Source: Bacillota bacterium (GTDB taxonomy: Bacteria > Macinerneyibacteriota > Macinerneyibacteria > Macinerneyibacteriales > DSCS01). From it: 42,330 nt of DNA. Positions within the stretch are counted from its first letter, which is position 1, and each line of letters opens with the position of its first letter. Both the position numbers and the translations under genes were made by a program. The stretch covers positions 1 through 42,330 of the forward strand of contig DSCS01000048.1 in NCBI GenBank assembly GCA_011048995.1, in the 5' to 3' direction. Below are positions 34,843 through 42,330 of this stretch, piece after piece. The notes under the pieces are model-generated. The model was not told where the DNA came from, did no database searches, and saw only the letters and a program-made list of their open reading frames with translations.

Positions 34843-35787
34843 TTAGTGGTGGGATGCCACCTTCTCATAGTCGATCTTATAAATATTCGCCCCATCGGAA
34901 ACATATAAAAGGCTCTCTTTACGATTCACAGCTATTTTTAATTCCACTCTCTCCTGGTGTTCACCCGGAGGAAAAGAAACCATCGCCAGTTCCTGCCCCT
35001 TCAGATTCATCAAACTGATAAAAGGATTCAGTTCCTGTTTTCGAAGAGCCGGCTTTTCTCCGCTAAAGAAAGCGGCTATGATCAGCTTCGCCTCTTCATC
35101 AAGTGCCAAATCGGATAAGACTTCGATCTTGTCTCCACTGCTGTTCCTAAGCCCTTTCAGGACCCTCCCGGGCAAAGGAATTCTGTGAACCGTCCCGTTG
35201 TCCCGCTCATAGATCTTGAGAGACACTGAAGGCGTCTTATAGGCTAAAAGAACATAGTTTTCACTGATATCAAAAAGGACGGGCAATGCCTCTTTATCCT
35301 TTTCAAGAAAAATAAACTCCCCCGTCTGCTCTCCCGCTGTTCTGATCAGAGGCCTGTCTTCTTTGCATTCGTCTTCACATATATAGTAGACAATCTCATT
35401 GAAAAGTTTGAGATCCGCGACCTTCTCATCAGCCGGTTTAGATTCCAGATACCCATAATCATACGAATAAAGAGAGAACCGGCTGTTCCCTTTGTCATAG
35501 AGACAAATCTGATTTTCTCCTGAAGCGATTGCGGTAATAGAGCTGATCTCGTACGGTTTTGTCCCGATTGACTGATTAAAATAATTCCGACGTCCATCAT
35601 CCTCTACCATAAAGACCGTATTAGAGGAGTAAAGTCCGAACAACGTTCCCTTTTCTGTTATGGCTAACCCTTCGCAGTGATTCCCTTCACTGAACAGGCT
35701 TGACTGGATTTGAACAGGCCTTCTTTGCATTCGGCACGCTCCCGTGAAAAAAATCAAGGAGAGTAAGCAGCAGAAAAGTCTCCCCAT
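34843..35787 (-). CDS. Putative beta-propeller lipoprotein
   Basis: 314 residues from the ATG at 35787 (AAGGAGG 9 nt upstream); the frame extends 12 codons further without a site. A hydrophobic signal peptide ends in FFTGAC with a probable lipidated C18, a somewhat atypical lipobox. The rest is repetitive beta-rich sequence with pairs such as LAITEKGTLFGL and CLYDKGNSRFSLYSYD, typical of 6-bladed propellers of the NHL or BF3164 style. No catalytic motif is visible. Divergent from the M3 peptidase gene, with a small inverted repeat between them. Confidence 0.68.
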   Translation of the reverse strand: MGRLFCCLLSLIFFTGACRMQRRPVQIQSSLFSEGNHCEGLAITEKGTLFGLYSSNTVFMVEDDGRRNYFNQSIGTKPYEISSITAIASGENQICLYDKGNSRFSLYSYDYGYLESKPADEKVADLKLFNEIVYYICEDECKEDRPLIRTAGEQTGEFIFLEKDKEALPVLFDISENYVLLAYKTPSVSLKIYERDNGTVHRIPLPGRVLKGLRNSSGDKIEVLSDLALDEEAKLIIAAFFSGEKPALRKQELNPFISLMNLKGQELAMVSFPPGEHQERVELKIAVNRKESLLYVSDGANIYKIDYEKVASHH

Positions 35788-35814
35788 TGTCCTGAGCCTC
35801 CTTATTTTCCTTTT

Positions 35815-35843
35815 ATCGTACAAGCGAACGACACTCCGGTCAA
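35815..35843 (-). promoter_or_regulatory. Promoter for the propeller-like lipoprotein gene
   Basis: TTGACC (35838-35843) and TACGAT (35815-35820) on the minus strand with a 17-nt spacer. Confidence 0.6.
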
Positions 35844-37585: not shown

Positions 37586-37658
37586 TGGAGCTAACGAGAC
37601 TCGAACTCGTGACCTCTTGACTGCCAGTCAAGCGCTCTCCCAGCTGAGCTATAGCCCC
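37586..37658 (-). tRNA. tRNA-Ala (anticodon GGC)
   Basis: 73 nt without encoded CCA. The 5' end reads GGGGCTA and pairs with TAGCTCC at the 3' end, including the G3-U70 wobble pair that identifies alanine tRNA. The D arm has AGCTCAGCTGGGAGAGC, the anticodon stem CTTGA/TCAAG holds loop CTGGCAG with anticodon GGC, and the T arm has GTTCGAGTC. The discriminator base is A. Confidence 0.97.
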
Positions 37659-39247: not shown

Positions 39248-39362
39248 GAGGGGTCGCGTCCAGCACTCAACAAAAAAAATTAAAAAAGAAATTTTCAGGA
39301 AAGGGGTGAATCACAAATATGGAAAACTTCTTATAATCATTGAGTGCCGGGCGCGACCCCCT
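39248..39362. repeat. 115-bp element with 23-bp imperfect inverted ends (MITE/REP-like)
   Basis: The ends 39248-39270 and 39340-39362 are inverted copies matching at 19 of 23 positions, sharing GGGGTCGCG and CACTCAA cores. The 69-bp interior is A/T-rich and encodes nothing. It lies between the thioredoxin-like gene stop and the DUF937 promoter. It could act as a terminator-like hairpin, a REP-type sequence or a small non-autonomous mobile element. A related sequence in opposite orientation begins at 42257. Confidence 0.6.
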
Positions 39363-39367
39363 ATTTA

Positions 39368-39880
39368 TCATAATCCATCCAGGAAAGTGCGCAATCTCTT
39401 GATCCCTTCCCTTCCTTCGGGCCTGTCGGAAAGATACAGGTCTGTCTCTAAAAAGAGAACGCGCCCGCTAATGTCCATGATGAATTTAGCGGGGAAAGTG
39501 GGAATGTTGAGCTTTTTCCATTGTTTAAAATGAGGATCCGGAAAAATATATGTAAAATCCATTCCTGTTTCTTGGAGATAGATCTTTTCCAGGGCCTTAT
39601 CTTCATGTCCTTCGGTGATTCCGATGAAAATGATTTTATCTTTGTATTTCTGGTAAAGCTTATTTATTACGGCCTTTTCTTCTTCACAATAATGACATCC
39701 GATGTTTTTAAAGAGATAGATAAATATATAGGGAGGATAGCTCTTCTGTTGCATTAACCCGACGTTATACTGAGTCAAGTTTTCTTTTAAAGCAGCCTGC
39801 CCCCAAAGGATGCTGAGGACACTGATAACTGACAGGAAACACCCCAAAATAATCTTAAACGGAGCTGATGTATACTTCAT
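39368..39880 (-). CDS. Membrane-anchored thioredoxin-fold protein (CHYC)
   Basis: 170 residues from the ATG at 39880; the frame runs 20 codons further upstream but that lies deep in the preceding gene. A single N-terminal membrane segment (about 9-28) anchors a periplasmic TlpA/redoxin-like domain. The redox motif is GCHYC (C62, C65), followed by KIIFIGITEG and a proline-containing IPTFPAKFIMD near the cis-proline position. It probably forms, breaks or transfers disulfides outside the membrane. It is the last gene of the peptide/propeller cassette, overlapping the propeller gene by 26 nt; the cysteine peptide and the lipoproteins are candidate partners (inference). Confidence 0.8.
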   Translation of the reverse strand: MKYTSAPFKIILGCFLSVISVLSILWGQAALKENLTQYNVGLMQQKSYPPYIFIYLFKNIGCHYCEEEKAVINKLYQKYKDKIIFIGITEGHEDKALEKIYLQETGMDFTYIFPDPHFKQWKKLNIPTFPAKFIMDISGRVLFLETDLYLSDRPEGREGIKRLRTFLDGL

Positions 39881-40802
39881 TTTCTCTGAAAAAATAGACA
39901 ATATCATCATGGATGAAGAAAACTCTGAATTTTTTATCAATCGTATAGATCTTCTGACGATTCAGGTCAAGATCATAAACAGATAAATATGTTGTAATCT
40001 TTGGCTCATCCCCCTTGTTAATTGAACTCATGTCATAGCATAAGACATAGAGGTTCTTTTTATAAACTTGCATTTTTGTCACATAAAAACGCTCCGGGGT
40101 ATTTTCAGCTGCGTTATAAGCCTTTGAATCCATGTTCAAGAAAGGTTGTTTTATCTCTTTGATCTTTTCACCTGTAATGAGGTCATATTTTGCGATTTTG
40201 TTTTGAAACGTATACCCGACAAAAAGGTGATCATCGGTACATACTGAATCAGTATAATTCATCGAAAGCTTTTTCATTGCATTATCATATTGATCTGCAG
40301 AGACAAGGTCTTCTTCAAACTTTTTTTCTTTCATGTTAAAAATGGAGTATAGCTTATCCGTATTCACAGGGATTAATCCTAAGATAAGCCTATCTGTCTT
40401 ATAGGTGGTGATGTCATGAGACAACCCTTCTTGAGGAATATTAATCGTGTCAATGAACCCGGATCGGTCAAAAATATTAATTCTGTGAAGGCTCTGATCA
40501 ATAATATAAATATTATCACCTGAAGCCATATATAAGGCCCTTGACCATAACTCACCCGGGCCTTTTCCCCTCCGAGCAATAACTTCAATATTTTTGAACT
40601 CTTTATCACATGCAACCAAACGCCGTGATAATCCATCGAGAATGACAAAAGAATCACTTAATACCGTAACATCAGTGATTTCACTCACTTCTTTGATTGA
40701 TGTTATTTTTTCTGTCTTCAGATCTATAAAGTCAAACTGCTCTTTTCGGCAGGAAAAGAACAACGGCAAAACAATTAATAAAAATGCAGCTTTCAGCTTC
40801 AT
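39855..40802 (-). CDS. 6-bladed beta-propeller lipoprotein B of the peptide cassette
   Basis: 315 residues. The signal peptide ends at LFFSC, giving lipidated C18. The remainder has repeated beta-blade sequence, such as ITDVTVLSDSFVILDG, RRGKGPGELWSRALYMAS and NIYIIDQSLHRINIFDRSG, in the style of the BF3164-type 6-bladed propellers; the GKGPGE signature is typical. It probably sits on the periplasmic or outer face as a binding protein. Its start overlaps the stop of the other propeller gene by 4 nt (ATGA), so the two are made together. Confidence 0.85.
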   Translation of the reverse strand: MKLKAAFLLIVLPLFFSCRKEQFDFIDLKTEKITSIKEVSEITDVTVLSDSFVILDGLSRRLVACDKEFKNIEVIARRGKGPGELWSRALYMASGDNIYIIDQSLHRINIFDRSGFIDTINIPQEGLSHDITTYKTDRLILGLIPVNTDKLYSIFNMKEKKFEEDLVSADQYDNAMKKLSMNYTDSVCTDDHLFVGYTFQNKIAKYDLITGEKIKEIKQPFLNMDSKAYNAAENTPERFYVTKMQVYKKNLYVLCYDMSSINKGDEPKITTYLSVYDLDLNRQKIYTIDKKFRVFFIHDDIVYFFRENEVYISSV

Positions 40803-41896
40803 CTCTCTTCAACCTCCTGAAATTTCAAATCATCCTTGTCAACACAGGCAATAATCCGGGTTCCGAGATCAAAAACAAAAAATACTTTCCTCTTGTTGCT
40901 TACCATATGGGTAATGTCATCTTCTCTATCTTGGGCCATTTGGAAGAACATCGTTTTATTTGTCTCCAAATTCTTTTTGTAAAGAATCAGCTTTTTATTG
41001 ATCTCTCCATTCACCGTATAATAGAGGTCGTCGCCCTCGATGCAAAAGGCCTTGATATGTTGAATTTCATCCTCAGGAGAAAACTCAGTTTTGTTAACCA
41101 TATCGATGCTGTAGGAACCGACTTGCTGAAACCTTTCATCATAGGTCTCCATCCGGTTTTGGAAAGGCCAGATGACAAAGAGTCTGTCACCTGATGAGAA
41201 AAAACGAACCGAATTGACTACGCTGTCAAATGATTTTCTTTTTCCAGCACACTTGACATATGTCCCATCCTGCTTATAAACCAATAGAGCAGGCTCTCCT
41301 TTTCCAGAATAATAATTATCCGTTAAAAGAAAATCATTCCAAAAGATAAACTCCCGACATTTTTCTTCCAACTTAATCGTGCCCCTTTTCTGTCCTGAAT
41401 TCAAAGATATTTTGTGTATTGTTTTAAGGGGAGCATTCAAAACATACAGATCATCTCCTGAAACTTCCATATCATAATATTTACGCTTTTCTTCTGATTT
41501 GAATATTCTTATCCCATTCGTTAAATCCATCACGTACCCATAAAAAAGAGTCGGTCCCATCAACAGGCGATCTTCACTTATTAATACTTTTTTTGAAGAC
41601 CCCCAAAGAGTTAAAGAATACGGAAGATCAATCTGATACTCTTTATCCAGTTCTCCTTCTTTTTTCTCCTGAAAAACAACCTCCATAAAAGAGAATTTCG
41701 TTCTAAAATTGCTCTGGTTGATTTTAATAATCTTATTCATTTCCTCGTGACCAGCTTCTATAAGTGCATCGTCATTTCCAAGTAGATCATCATCTTTTTG
41801 ACTGGAATTATCATACCCCCCTTGTTCTCCGGAAACACATTGTGTAAGCTGAGATAAGGCTAAAAACAATATCAAGACAATAAAATGAAACTTCAC
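40799..41896 (-). CDS. 6-bladed beta-propeller lipoprotein A of the peptide cassette
   Basis: 365 residues beginning with GTG at 41896 behind AGGGGA. The signal peptide ends LSQLTQC (C20); glutamine before the cysteine makes it an atypical lipobox. An acidic spacer (about 25-50) leads to a beta-propeller-like body with RLLMGPTLFYGYVMDLTNG, DLYVLNAPLKTIHKIS and DRLFVIWPFQNRMETYDE. It is about 50 residues longer than propeller B and not a close copy of it. It comes first after the peptide gene, from which it is separated by a 12-bp hairpin. Confidence 0.8.
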   Translation of the reverse strand: MKFHFIVLILFLALSQLTQCVSGEQGGYDNSSQKDDDLLGNDDALIEAGHEEMNKIIKINQSNFRTKFSFMEVVFQEKKEGELDKEYQIDLPYSLTLWGSSKKVLISEDRLLMGPTLFYGYVMDLTNGIRIFKSEEKRKYYDMEVSGDDLYVLNAPLKTIHKISLNSGQKRGTIKLEEKCREFIFWNDFLLTDNYYSGKGEPALLVYKQDGTYVKCAGKRKSFDSVVNSVRFFSSGDRLFVIWPFQNRMETYDERFQQVGSYSIDMVNKTEFSPEDEIQHIKAFCIEGDDLYYTVNGEINKKLILYKKNLETNKTMFFQMAQDREDDITHMVSNKRKVFFVFDLGTRIIACVDKDDLKFQEVEER

Positions 41897-41916
41897 GACA
41901 TCCCCTTTCGAGTTAT

Positions 41917-41951
41917 AATTTCCCCTCCGTTCTTAAAAACGGAGGGGAATT
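41917..41951 (-). promoter_or_regulatory. Strong intercistronic hairpin between the peptide and propeller genes
   Basis: TTCCCCTCCGTT (41920-41931) and AACGGAGGGGAA (41938-41949) form a 12-bp perfect stem with a 6-base loop, extended by AAT/ATT across a bulge. No T run follows, so it looks like a partial terminator, processing or 3'-stabilising element that would raise peptide mRNA above that of the downstream genes. Confidence 0.7.
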
Positions 41952-41954
41952 GGC

Positions 41955-42158
41955 TCAACTGAAGATAGCTCTACCGACATCAATGAGGTAGATAACACCA
42001 CATGCCAGCTCACCAAGATTAGATTCGGCATGATCCAGGCATTCATTAAGATCATCTTTGGCATCCTGCATTGTGTAATTATCATCTTCTGCAAAAAGGT
42101 TTGTTGCAGGAGCTAAAAGAAGCCCGAACATGAGGATAAAAACAATCACCTTTTTCAT
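41955..42158 (-). CDS. Small secreted two-cysteine peptide precursor
   Basis: 67 residues. A clear signal peptide (about 1-23: KK, a hydrophobic core, then NLFA with probable cleavage before EDD) leaves a mature peptide of about 44 residues. The mature part is acidic in its first half, helical in style, with cysteines C40 and C53 and a hydrophobic C-terminal GVIYLIDVGRAIF stretch. The ribosome binding site AAGGAGGTGA (42163-42172) matches the 16S anti-Shine-Dalgarno sequence over its full length, implying high expression. I recognise no family. It recalls the NVEALA-type small peptides found beside propeller lipoproteins in Bacteroidota, but the sequence is not that motif. Confidence 0.75.
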   Translation of the reverse strand: MKKVIVFILMFGLLLAPATNLFAEDDNYTMQDAKDDLNECLDHAESNLGELACGVIYLIDVGRAIFS

Positions 42159-42208
42159 CCTCTCACCTCCTTTCTTCCCTTTGCGCGCTCAAGGAGTGAT
42201 TATTATCT

Positions 42209-42236
42209 ATGTTATAGGGCTGAAAGGTCTTGTCAA
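42209..42236 (-). promoter_or_regulatory. Possible promoter for the peptide cassette
   Basis: TTGACA (42231-42236) and TAACAT (42209-42214, four of six consensus bases) on the minus strand with a 16-nt spacer, about 50 nt before the peptide start. Confidence 0.5.
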
Positions 42237-42245
42237 TCAGGCAAT

Positions 42246-42330
42246 CCCCTGAATTTAGGGGTCGTGCCCCCTATACTAAATCCTTTTGATAGGATTTTTC
42301 ACAAACACAAGTCCTGAAAAATTATCCTCT
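42246..42330. repeat. GGGGTCG-type repeat with nested hairpins, cut by window end
   Basis: CCCCT (42246-42250), AGGGG (42257-42261) and CCCCCT (from 42267) allow two mutually exclusive hairpins, AGGGG pairing either way. A further inverted repeat, AAATCCT/AGGATTT, lies at 42278-42297. The plus strand here resembles the minus strand of the 39248-39362 element (GGGGTCG[C/T]GCC, then A/T-rich sequence, then TCCTGAAAA), so the two are related and oppositely oriented around the peptide cassette. Confidence 0.45.

Follow-up and report, generated by a model that had tools for sequence, protein, structure and literature searches.

We read the AT-rich tail of a contig from an isolated lineage as a probably mobile operon for a secreted peptide, in which the peptide slot varies and the envelope partners stay constant; our confidence in this reading is about even. 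Four genes, all on the minus strand, encode a 67-aa exported peptide, two proteins of propeller type (prop1 and prop2), and a thioredoxin carrying CHYC. A scan of named genomes for relatives of this cassette returned a single close one, the sister operon L039 (JAFGIP010000001.1); because it keeps the partners and has the same leader in front of an unrelated precursor, we take leader, propellers, and thioredoxin as the constant part and the peptide as the variable one. Among the points that count against this reading, the contig ends inside a third propeller gene (prop3), so any upstream radical-SAM and ABC genes are not in view here, and the window peptide, lacking a homologue, offers no comparison for its cysteines.

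The window, by which we mean the full 42,330-base stretch analyzed, is one whole contig (G000:C13) of a 1.88-Mb genome, and was compared with two relatives, G001, a genus-mate, and G002, an order-mate. Its tail has a GC content of 37% vs 47%, the drop from about 45% to 35% falling near position 39,500. A tRNA-Ala gene lies at 37,586-37,658; synteny with the genus-mate is lost just past it, and the cassette follows downstream. Given the drop in GC together with the loss of synteny after a tRNA gene, the cassette was probably acquired, or is at least mobile. The inverted repeat at the edge of the island (Table 1) could be a terminator, an element boundary, or the end of a small mobile element, and a short motif at 42255-42275, beside the leader, resembles it. 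Outside the cassette, another divergent propeller lipoprotein is encoded at 34843-35823 (minus strand), between methyltransferase and M3 peptidase genes that are adjacent in the genus-mate.

An earlier note on this DNA had described a four-gene cassette. Its genes are confirmed, at nearly the boundaries given there, and the feature is larger than described, taking in the promoter and leader, a hairpin, and the end of prop3.

Table 1. Features of the cassette and its edges, in window coordinates.
Feature	Position	Strand	Evidence and remarks
Imperfect 21-nt inverted repeat (GGGGTCGCGTCCAGCACTCAA)	39250..39360 (arms 39250-39270 and 39340-39360, 69 nt apart)	.	3' edge of AT-rich island, where GC falls
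Membrane-anchored thioredoxin-fold protein, CHYC	39368..39880	-	ResA; 76% identity to the portion present in L039
prop2, 315-aa 6-bladed propeller lipoprotein, GKGPGE family motif	39855..40802	-	PF17170; 87% identity in L039
prop1, 365-aa exported, divergent propeller-like protein, GTG start	40799..41896	-	76% identity in L039
Stem-loop directly 3' of peptide	41920..41949	-	13 predicted pairs
67-aa exported peptide	41955..42158	-	ORF with Shine-Dalgarno AAAGGAGGTGA just 5'; codon score
Conserved leader: sigma70-like promoter, 5' UTR, Shine-Dalgarno AAAGGAGGTGA	42156..42253	-	96% identity to L039:7-105
prop3 3' end, last 17 codons (EDNFSGLVFVKNPIKRI, then stop), cut by contig end	42279..42330	-	Similarity to L039 prop3

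The peptide gene looks genuine, its codon score being reached by just 0.08% of off-frame segments of equal length. The 67-residue exported product described earlier, with two cysteines and a perfect ribosome site, was recovered as such: the cysteines are C40 and C53, and the ribosome site is the ideal AAAGGAGGTGA. A Sec-type signal sequence is obvious by eye, and the cleavage predicted in the same way, after ...NLFA, agrees with the 44-residue mature form proposed before. This predicted mature peptide has a net charge of -9 and a hydrophobic C-terminal half (GRAVY 1.14). The single-sequence AlphaFold model is a helical hairpin (H30-43 and H47-66) with pLDDT of about 86-91 over residues 31-60. 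Since the modeled helix-turn-helix places one cysteine on either side of the turn, an internal C40-C53 disulfide is plausible.

Searches of 60 and of 386 relative genomes, and of phages and plasmids, gave no homologue of the peptide; the weak matches in the first search of relatives were dropped as signal-peptide similarity or chance. Similarly, no relative was found in Pfam or NCBIfam, NVEALA (PF14055) was not among the Pfam matches at E<=1, DUF6520 gave no match, and Foldseek with the model gave no match at E below 4.

The partner genes are more readily placed. For the thioredoxin, the nearest relative of solved structure is ResA (1.4e-4), and Pfam Thioredoxin_8 matches at 4.2e-4, under the cut-off; CHYC within a ResA-like domain makes this a thioredoxin-fold protein. 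The earlier proposal of a membrane-anchored CHYC thioredoxin thus stands as to the motif, which is kept in the portion of the gene present in L039, and is corrected as to the start, most likely ATG 39880 (170 aa), overlapping the end of prop2. The protein shares an anchor, a CxxC motif, and the weak ResA match with ResA/TlpA-type thioredoxins, and differs from them in the CHYC motif itself and in its setting, a peptide operon instead of cytochrome c maturation.

Both middle genes had been taken for 6-bladed propeller lipoproteins, an assignment that holds for prop2 and is doubtful for prop1. prop2 belongs to DUF5128 (PF17170; 5.4e-10, 39.4 bits vs gathering 22.9), and its lipobox, LFFS-C, has the cysteine that is invariant, with G/A/S preceding, across 36 related propellers of these genomes. 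The profile of these 36 matches NHL-type propellers of known structure. prop1 matches no Pfam family at E<=1, and so is not a member of PF17170; against the 36-propeller profile it reaches an hhalign probability of 59.6% over 118 columns and an hmmsearch E of 0.014, and AlphaFold gave it no usable model (pLDDT 36). We call it propeller-like only weakly, on these sequence matches. Its lipidation is doubtful because the residue at -1 of the lipobox is Gln (LTQ-C in the window, LSQ-C in L039) and not G/A/S. The ATGA overlap reported for the two genes is as described, with the prop1 stop at 40801-40799 and the prop2 start at 40802-40800. Thus prop2, like most of the related propellers, resembles known DUF5128/NHL propellers, which here occur within peptide operons and alongside a divergent member, prop1. 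It is important to remember that these genomes encode numerous other propeller lipoproteins among ordinary genes, and proximity to a propeller is therefore weak evidence by itself.

The sister operon runs in one direction through a 54-aa peptide, a stem-loop, a radical-SAM/SPASM maturase, an ABC ATPase and permease, the propeller lipoprotein prop3, prop1, prop2, and the start of the thioredoxin. Its prop1, prop2, and thioredoxin are 76-87% identical to those of the window, and the end of prop3 in the window matches its counterpart at 82% over the final 17 residues (83% over 52 nt of DNA). Between prop3 and prop1, the window has leader and peptide, which are absent there in L039; instead, the L039 precursor, Cys-rich with FCGLCAFC and ending ...FCGLCAFCNPIKGSAEMVH, adjoins the maturase, in a region that the window contig, ending in prop3, stops short of. 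The G000 assembly contains no 54-aa precursor of the L039 kind, and its counterpart of the L039 maturase is just a 29% match on another contig. Judged from the sequences of the window and this one relative, the difference in peptide is compatible with an insertion or a deletion.

The earlier note had tied thioredoxin and propellers to the window peptide, and had named in advance the observation that would speak against this, namely partners conserved where the peptide is not. One close relative now provides that observation for the window peptide, as L039 retains the partners, does without the peptide, and uses the leader for an unrelated precursor. A fixed set in which this thioredoxin processes this peptide's disulfide, suggested by gene order and the CHYC motif, is accordingly improbable.

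L039 is deposited as part of a Bacteroidales MAG. Its tetranucleotide use is closer to G000 and G001 (0.80/0.82) than to the MAG itself (0.68, where a control fragment from the MAG reaches 0.90); a misbinned contig from a sister species is therefore probable, and the public record would then contain a binning error. For the same reason, we dropped the idea that these genes had been transferred to Bacteroidales.

What joins the two operons most closely is the leader. From upstream of TTGACA (at 42236; the second box, TAACAT, ends at 42209) to the start codon, 98 nt before the window peptide correspond to 99 nt before the L039 peptide; past the start codon, the coding sequences are unrelated. 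A third copy, at 70% identity, lies on another contig of G000 (L095, G000:C54, 866-1026), with its ribosome site intact and without a peptide, ahead of a propeller lipoprotein gene, and this sharing suggests co-regulation of the two operons. Neither leader nor prop1 was found in viral contigs. The stem-loop is a further constant, being kept in L039 despite the absence of the window peptide there. It is one of three sites in the window with perfect 12-bp hairpin arms, the 80-nt stretch around it has a Fold value of -26.3 kcal/mol, and a strong stem-loop also lies 3' of the peptide gene in L039 and in two order-mate loci, L109 and L110. It is a possible attenuator or processing site. In practice, orphan peptides of this kind may be sought 3' of the conserved leader and 5' of the stem-loop.

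L039 has recognizable relatives among known systems. Like the CefB (NF038107), geopeptide (TIGR04280), and PapB ranthipeptide (NF047865) clusters, it combines a short Cys-rich precursor, a SPASM maturase, and an ABC transporter. Unlike them, it has three propeller genes and a thioredoxin, and its maturase falls far under the curated cut-offs: the best NCBIfam model is NF038107 (3.7e-63, 213.9 bits vs 600), which places it outside that family, and TIGR04280 scores 162 bits (2.5e-47) vs 400. The window peptide departs from radical-SAM/SPASM RiPP clusters in being Sec-type and in having no maturase within the visible contig.

In Bacteroidota, the NVEALA (PF14055)/BF3164-style layout places exported peptides beside propeller lipoproteins. 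The earlier comparison with it holds for the layout, as in the window too a small exported Cys peptide adjoins a 6-bladed propeller lipoprotein, and fails for the family: the lineage differs, and PF14055 matched neither the peptide nor anything in its own genome, with a Bacteroides control positive. Membership in NVEALA was rejected on this basis, as was membership in DUF6520 (PF20130), to which one G001 peptide described below comes near at E 0.011 and 16.5 bits, under the cut-off of 25.4.

That this is a secreted-peptide cassette, as proposed before, and one of recurring design, is borne out by counterparts in two species. A second cassette of the same genome (G000:C25) encodes a 67-aa exported two-Cys peptide, three propellers, two thioredoxin-like proteins (CEQC and CNAC), as well as a DsbD-like protein. 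Its counterpart in the genus-mate, G001:C42, has three homologous peptides and one propeller, and runs out within the first thioredoxin-like gene. Both cysteines (NG...C.xGG.xC) occur in 4/4 of these peptides, and between the two orthologues the mature core hardly differs. As a general pattern, exported two-Cys peptides are therefore genuinely associated with propellers. On the maturase side, the three related genomes show a propeller in the cluster for 2/2 strong NF038107-like hits (G000:C47 and G002:C109) and for a weak one (G002:C155), and the other two weak hits resemble ordinary MoaA genes. A propeller lipoprotein also lies between the ABC genes of G002:C81.

This recurrence bears on the suggestion that there is no functional link at all, and that a small exported protein with a copied leader was inserted between prop3 and prop1, the propellers and thioredoxin having some other envelope role. 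The peptide is missing at the L039 site and absent elsewhere in 386 genomes, and many propellers stand alone, as this would lead one to expect. However, the second cassette repeats the association in two species with its mature cores preserved, and the window peptide's leader is the very one found before a precursor gene; we consider this explanation doubtful.

For the preferred reading, that of a variable peptide slot with constant partners, we propose the following export route, disulfide, binding, and purpose. The conserved promoter and leader would drive strong translation of the peptide gene, and the stem-loop behind it would probably reduce expression of the genes downstream. The window peptide would be exported by Sec and would probably fold as a hairpin of helices open to stapling by C40-C53; in the L039 slot, behind the same leader, the unrelated Cys-rich precursor would instead undergo radical-SAM/SPASM modification and leave through the ABC transporter. 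The ResA-like envelope thioredoxin may act on the cysteine thiols of the peptide or of the peptide's partner, and the propellers may be binding partners of the peptide, whether to protect the producer itself, to receive the peptide, or to retain it. The most likely use would be in competition or signalling among close relatives.

A stronger version of this is possible, and we put it forward tentatively: a two-mode system, in which one leader and one envelope set (propeller lipoproteins and thioredoxin) serve interchangeable peptides of different chemistry: some modified by a radical-SAM enzyme and exported by an ABC transporter, others unmodified, exported by Sec, and stapled by a disulfide. 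If so, the propellers would handle peptides generally across RiPP-type operons. No assigned role for propeller lipoproteins beside small exported peptides turned up in the paper library searched, which yielded no paper on the NVEALA, BF3164/DUF5128, or propeller-plus-RiPP themes. A single leader joined to two unrelated peptides offers a concrete candidate role, peptide binding, for a propeller family found repeatedly within this isolated lineage, in clusters of radical-SAM, YcaO, and Sec-peptide type.

The purpose might also be narrower. A bacteriocin-like product, whose mature form, an acidic helix joined to a hydrophobic one, would act on the envelopes of close relatives while prop1 and prop2 capture it to confer immunity and the thioredoxin maintains or forms its disulfide, would suit a variable peptide with constant surface partners on a low-GC island, the maturase and ABC exporter of the sister operon, and the hydrophobic C-terminal half. 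We nevertheless place it on the unlikely side: so negative a net charge is unusual among membrane-active peptides, the window shows no bacteriocin-type exporter, and immunity proteins are usually peptide-specific, yet the propellers persist as the peptide changes. Signalling or sensing, with the peptide as a released or surface-held signal, the propellers as its receptors, and the thioredoxin as redox control, seems to us rather unlikely. Two cassettes that combine an exported Cys peptide, a propeller, and a thioredoxin in the NVEALA-like manner, and the leader common to the C54 propeller operon, point toward it; the cassette is, however, without a regulator or sensor kinase, and the window peptide is an orphan.

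Two further sets of loci were noted among the relatives. In G001, a YcaO cluster (L052, G001:C5, 2380-8550) encodes a 620-aa YcaO protein, an ABC exporter, a propeller lipoprotein, and at least five tandem peptides of 41-45 aa each, ending ETGRPVL; it looks like an undescribed RiPP array. In the order-mate, L109 (G002:C109) and L110 (G002:C155) both have radical-SAM, ABC, and propeller genes, with near-identical ends of a LytTR-like regulator upstream. Their Cys-containing precursors differ (CPCQC in one, DDCSCYADM in the other), so that here, again, similar upstream regions are followed by different peptides.
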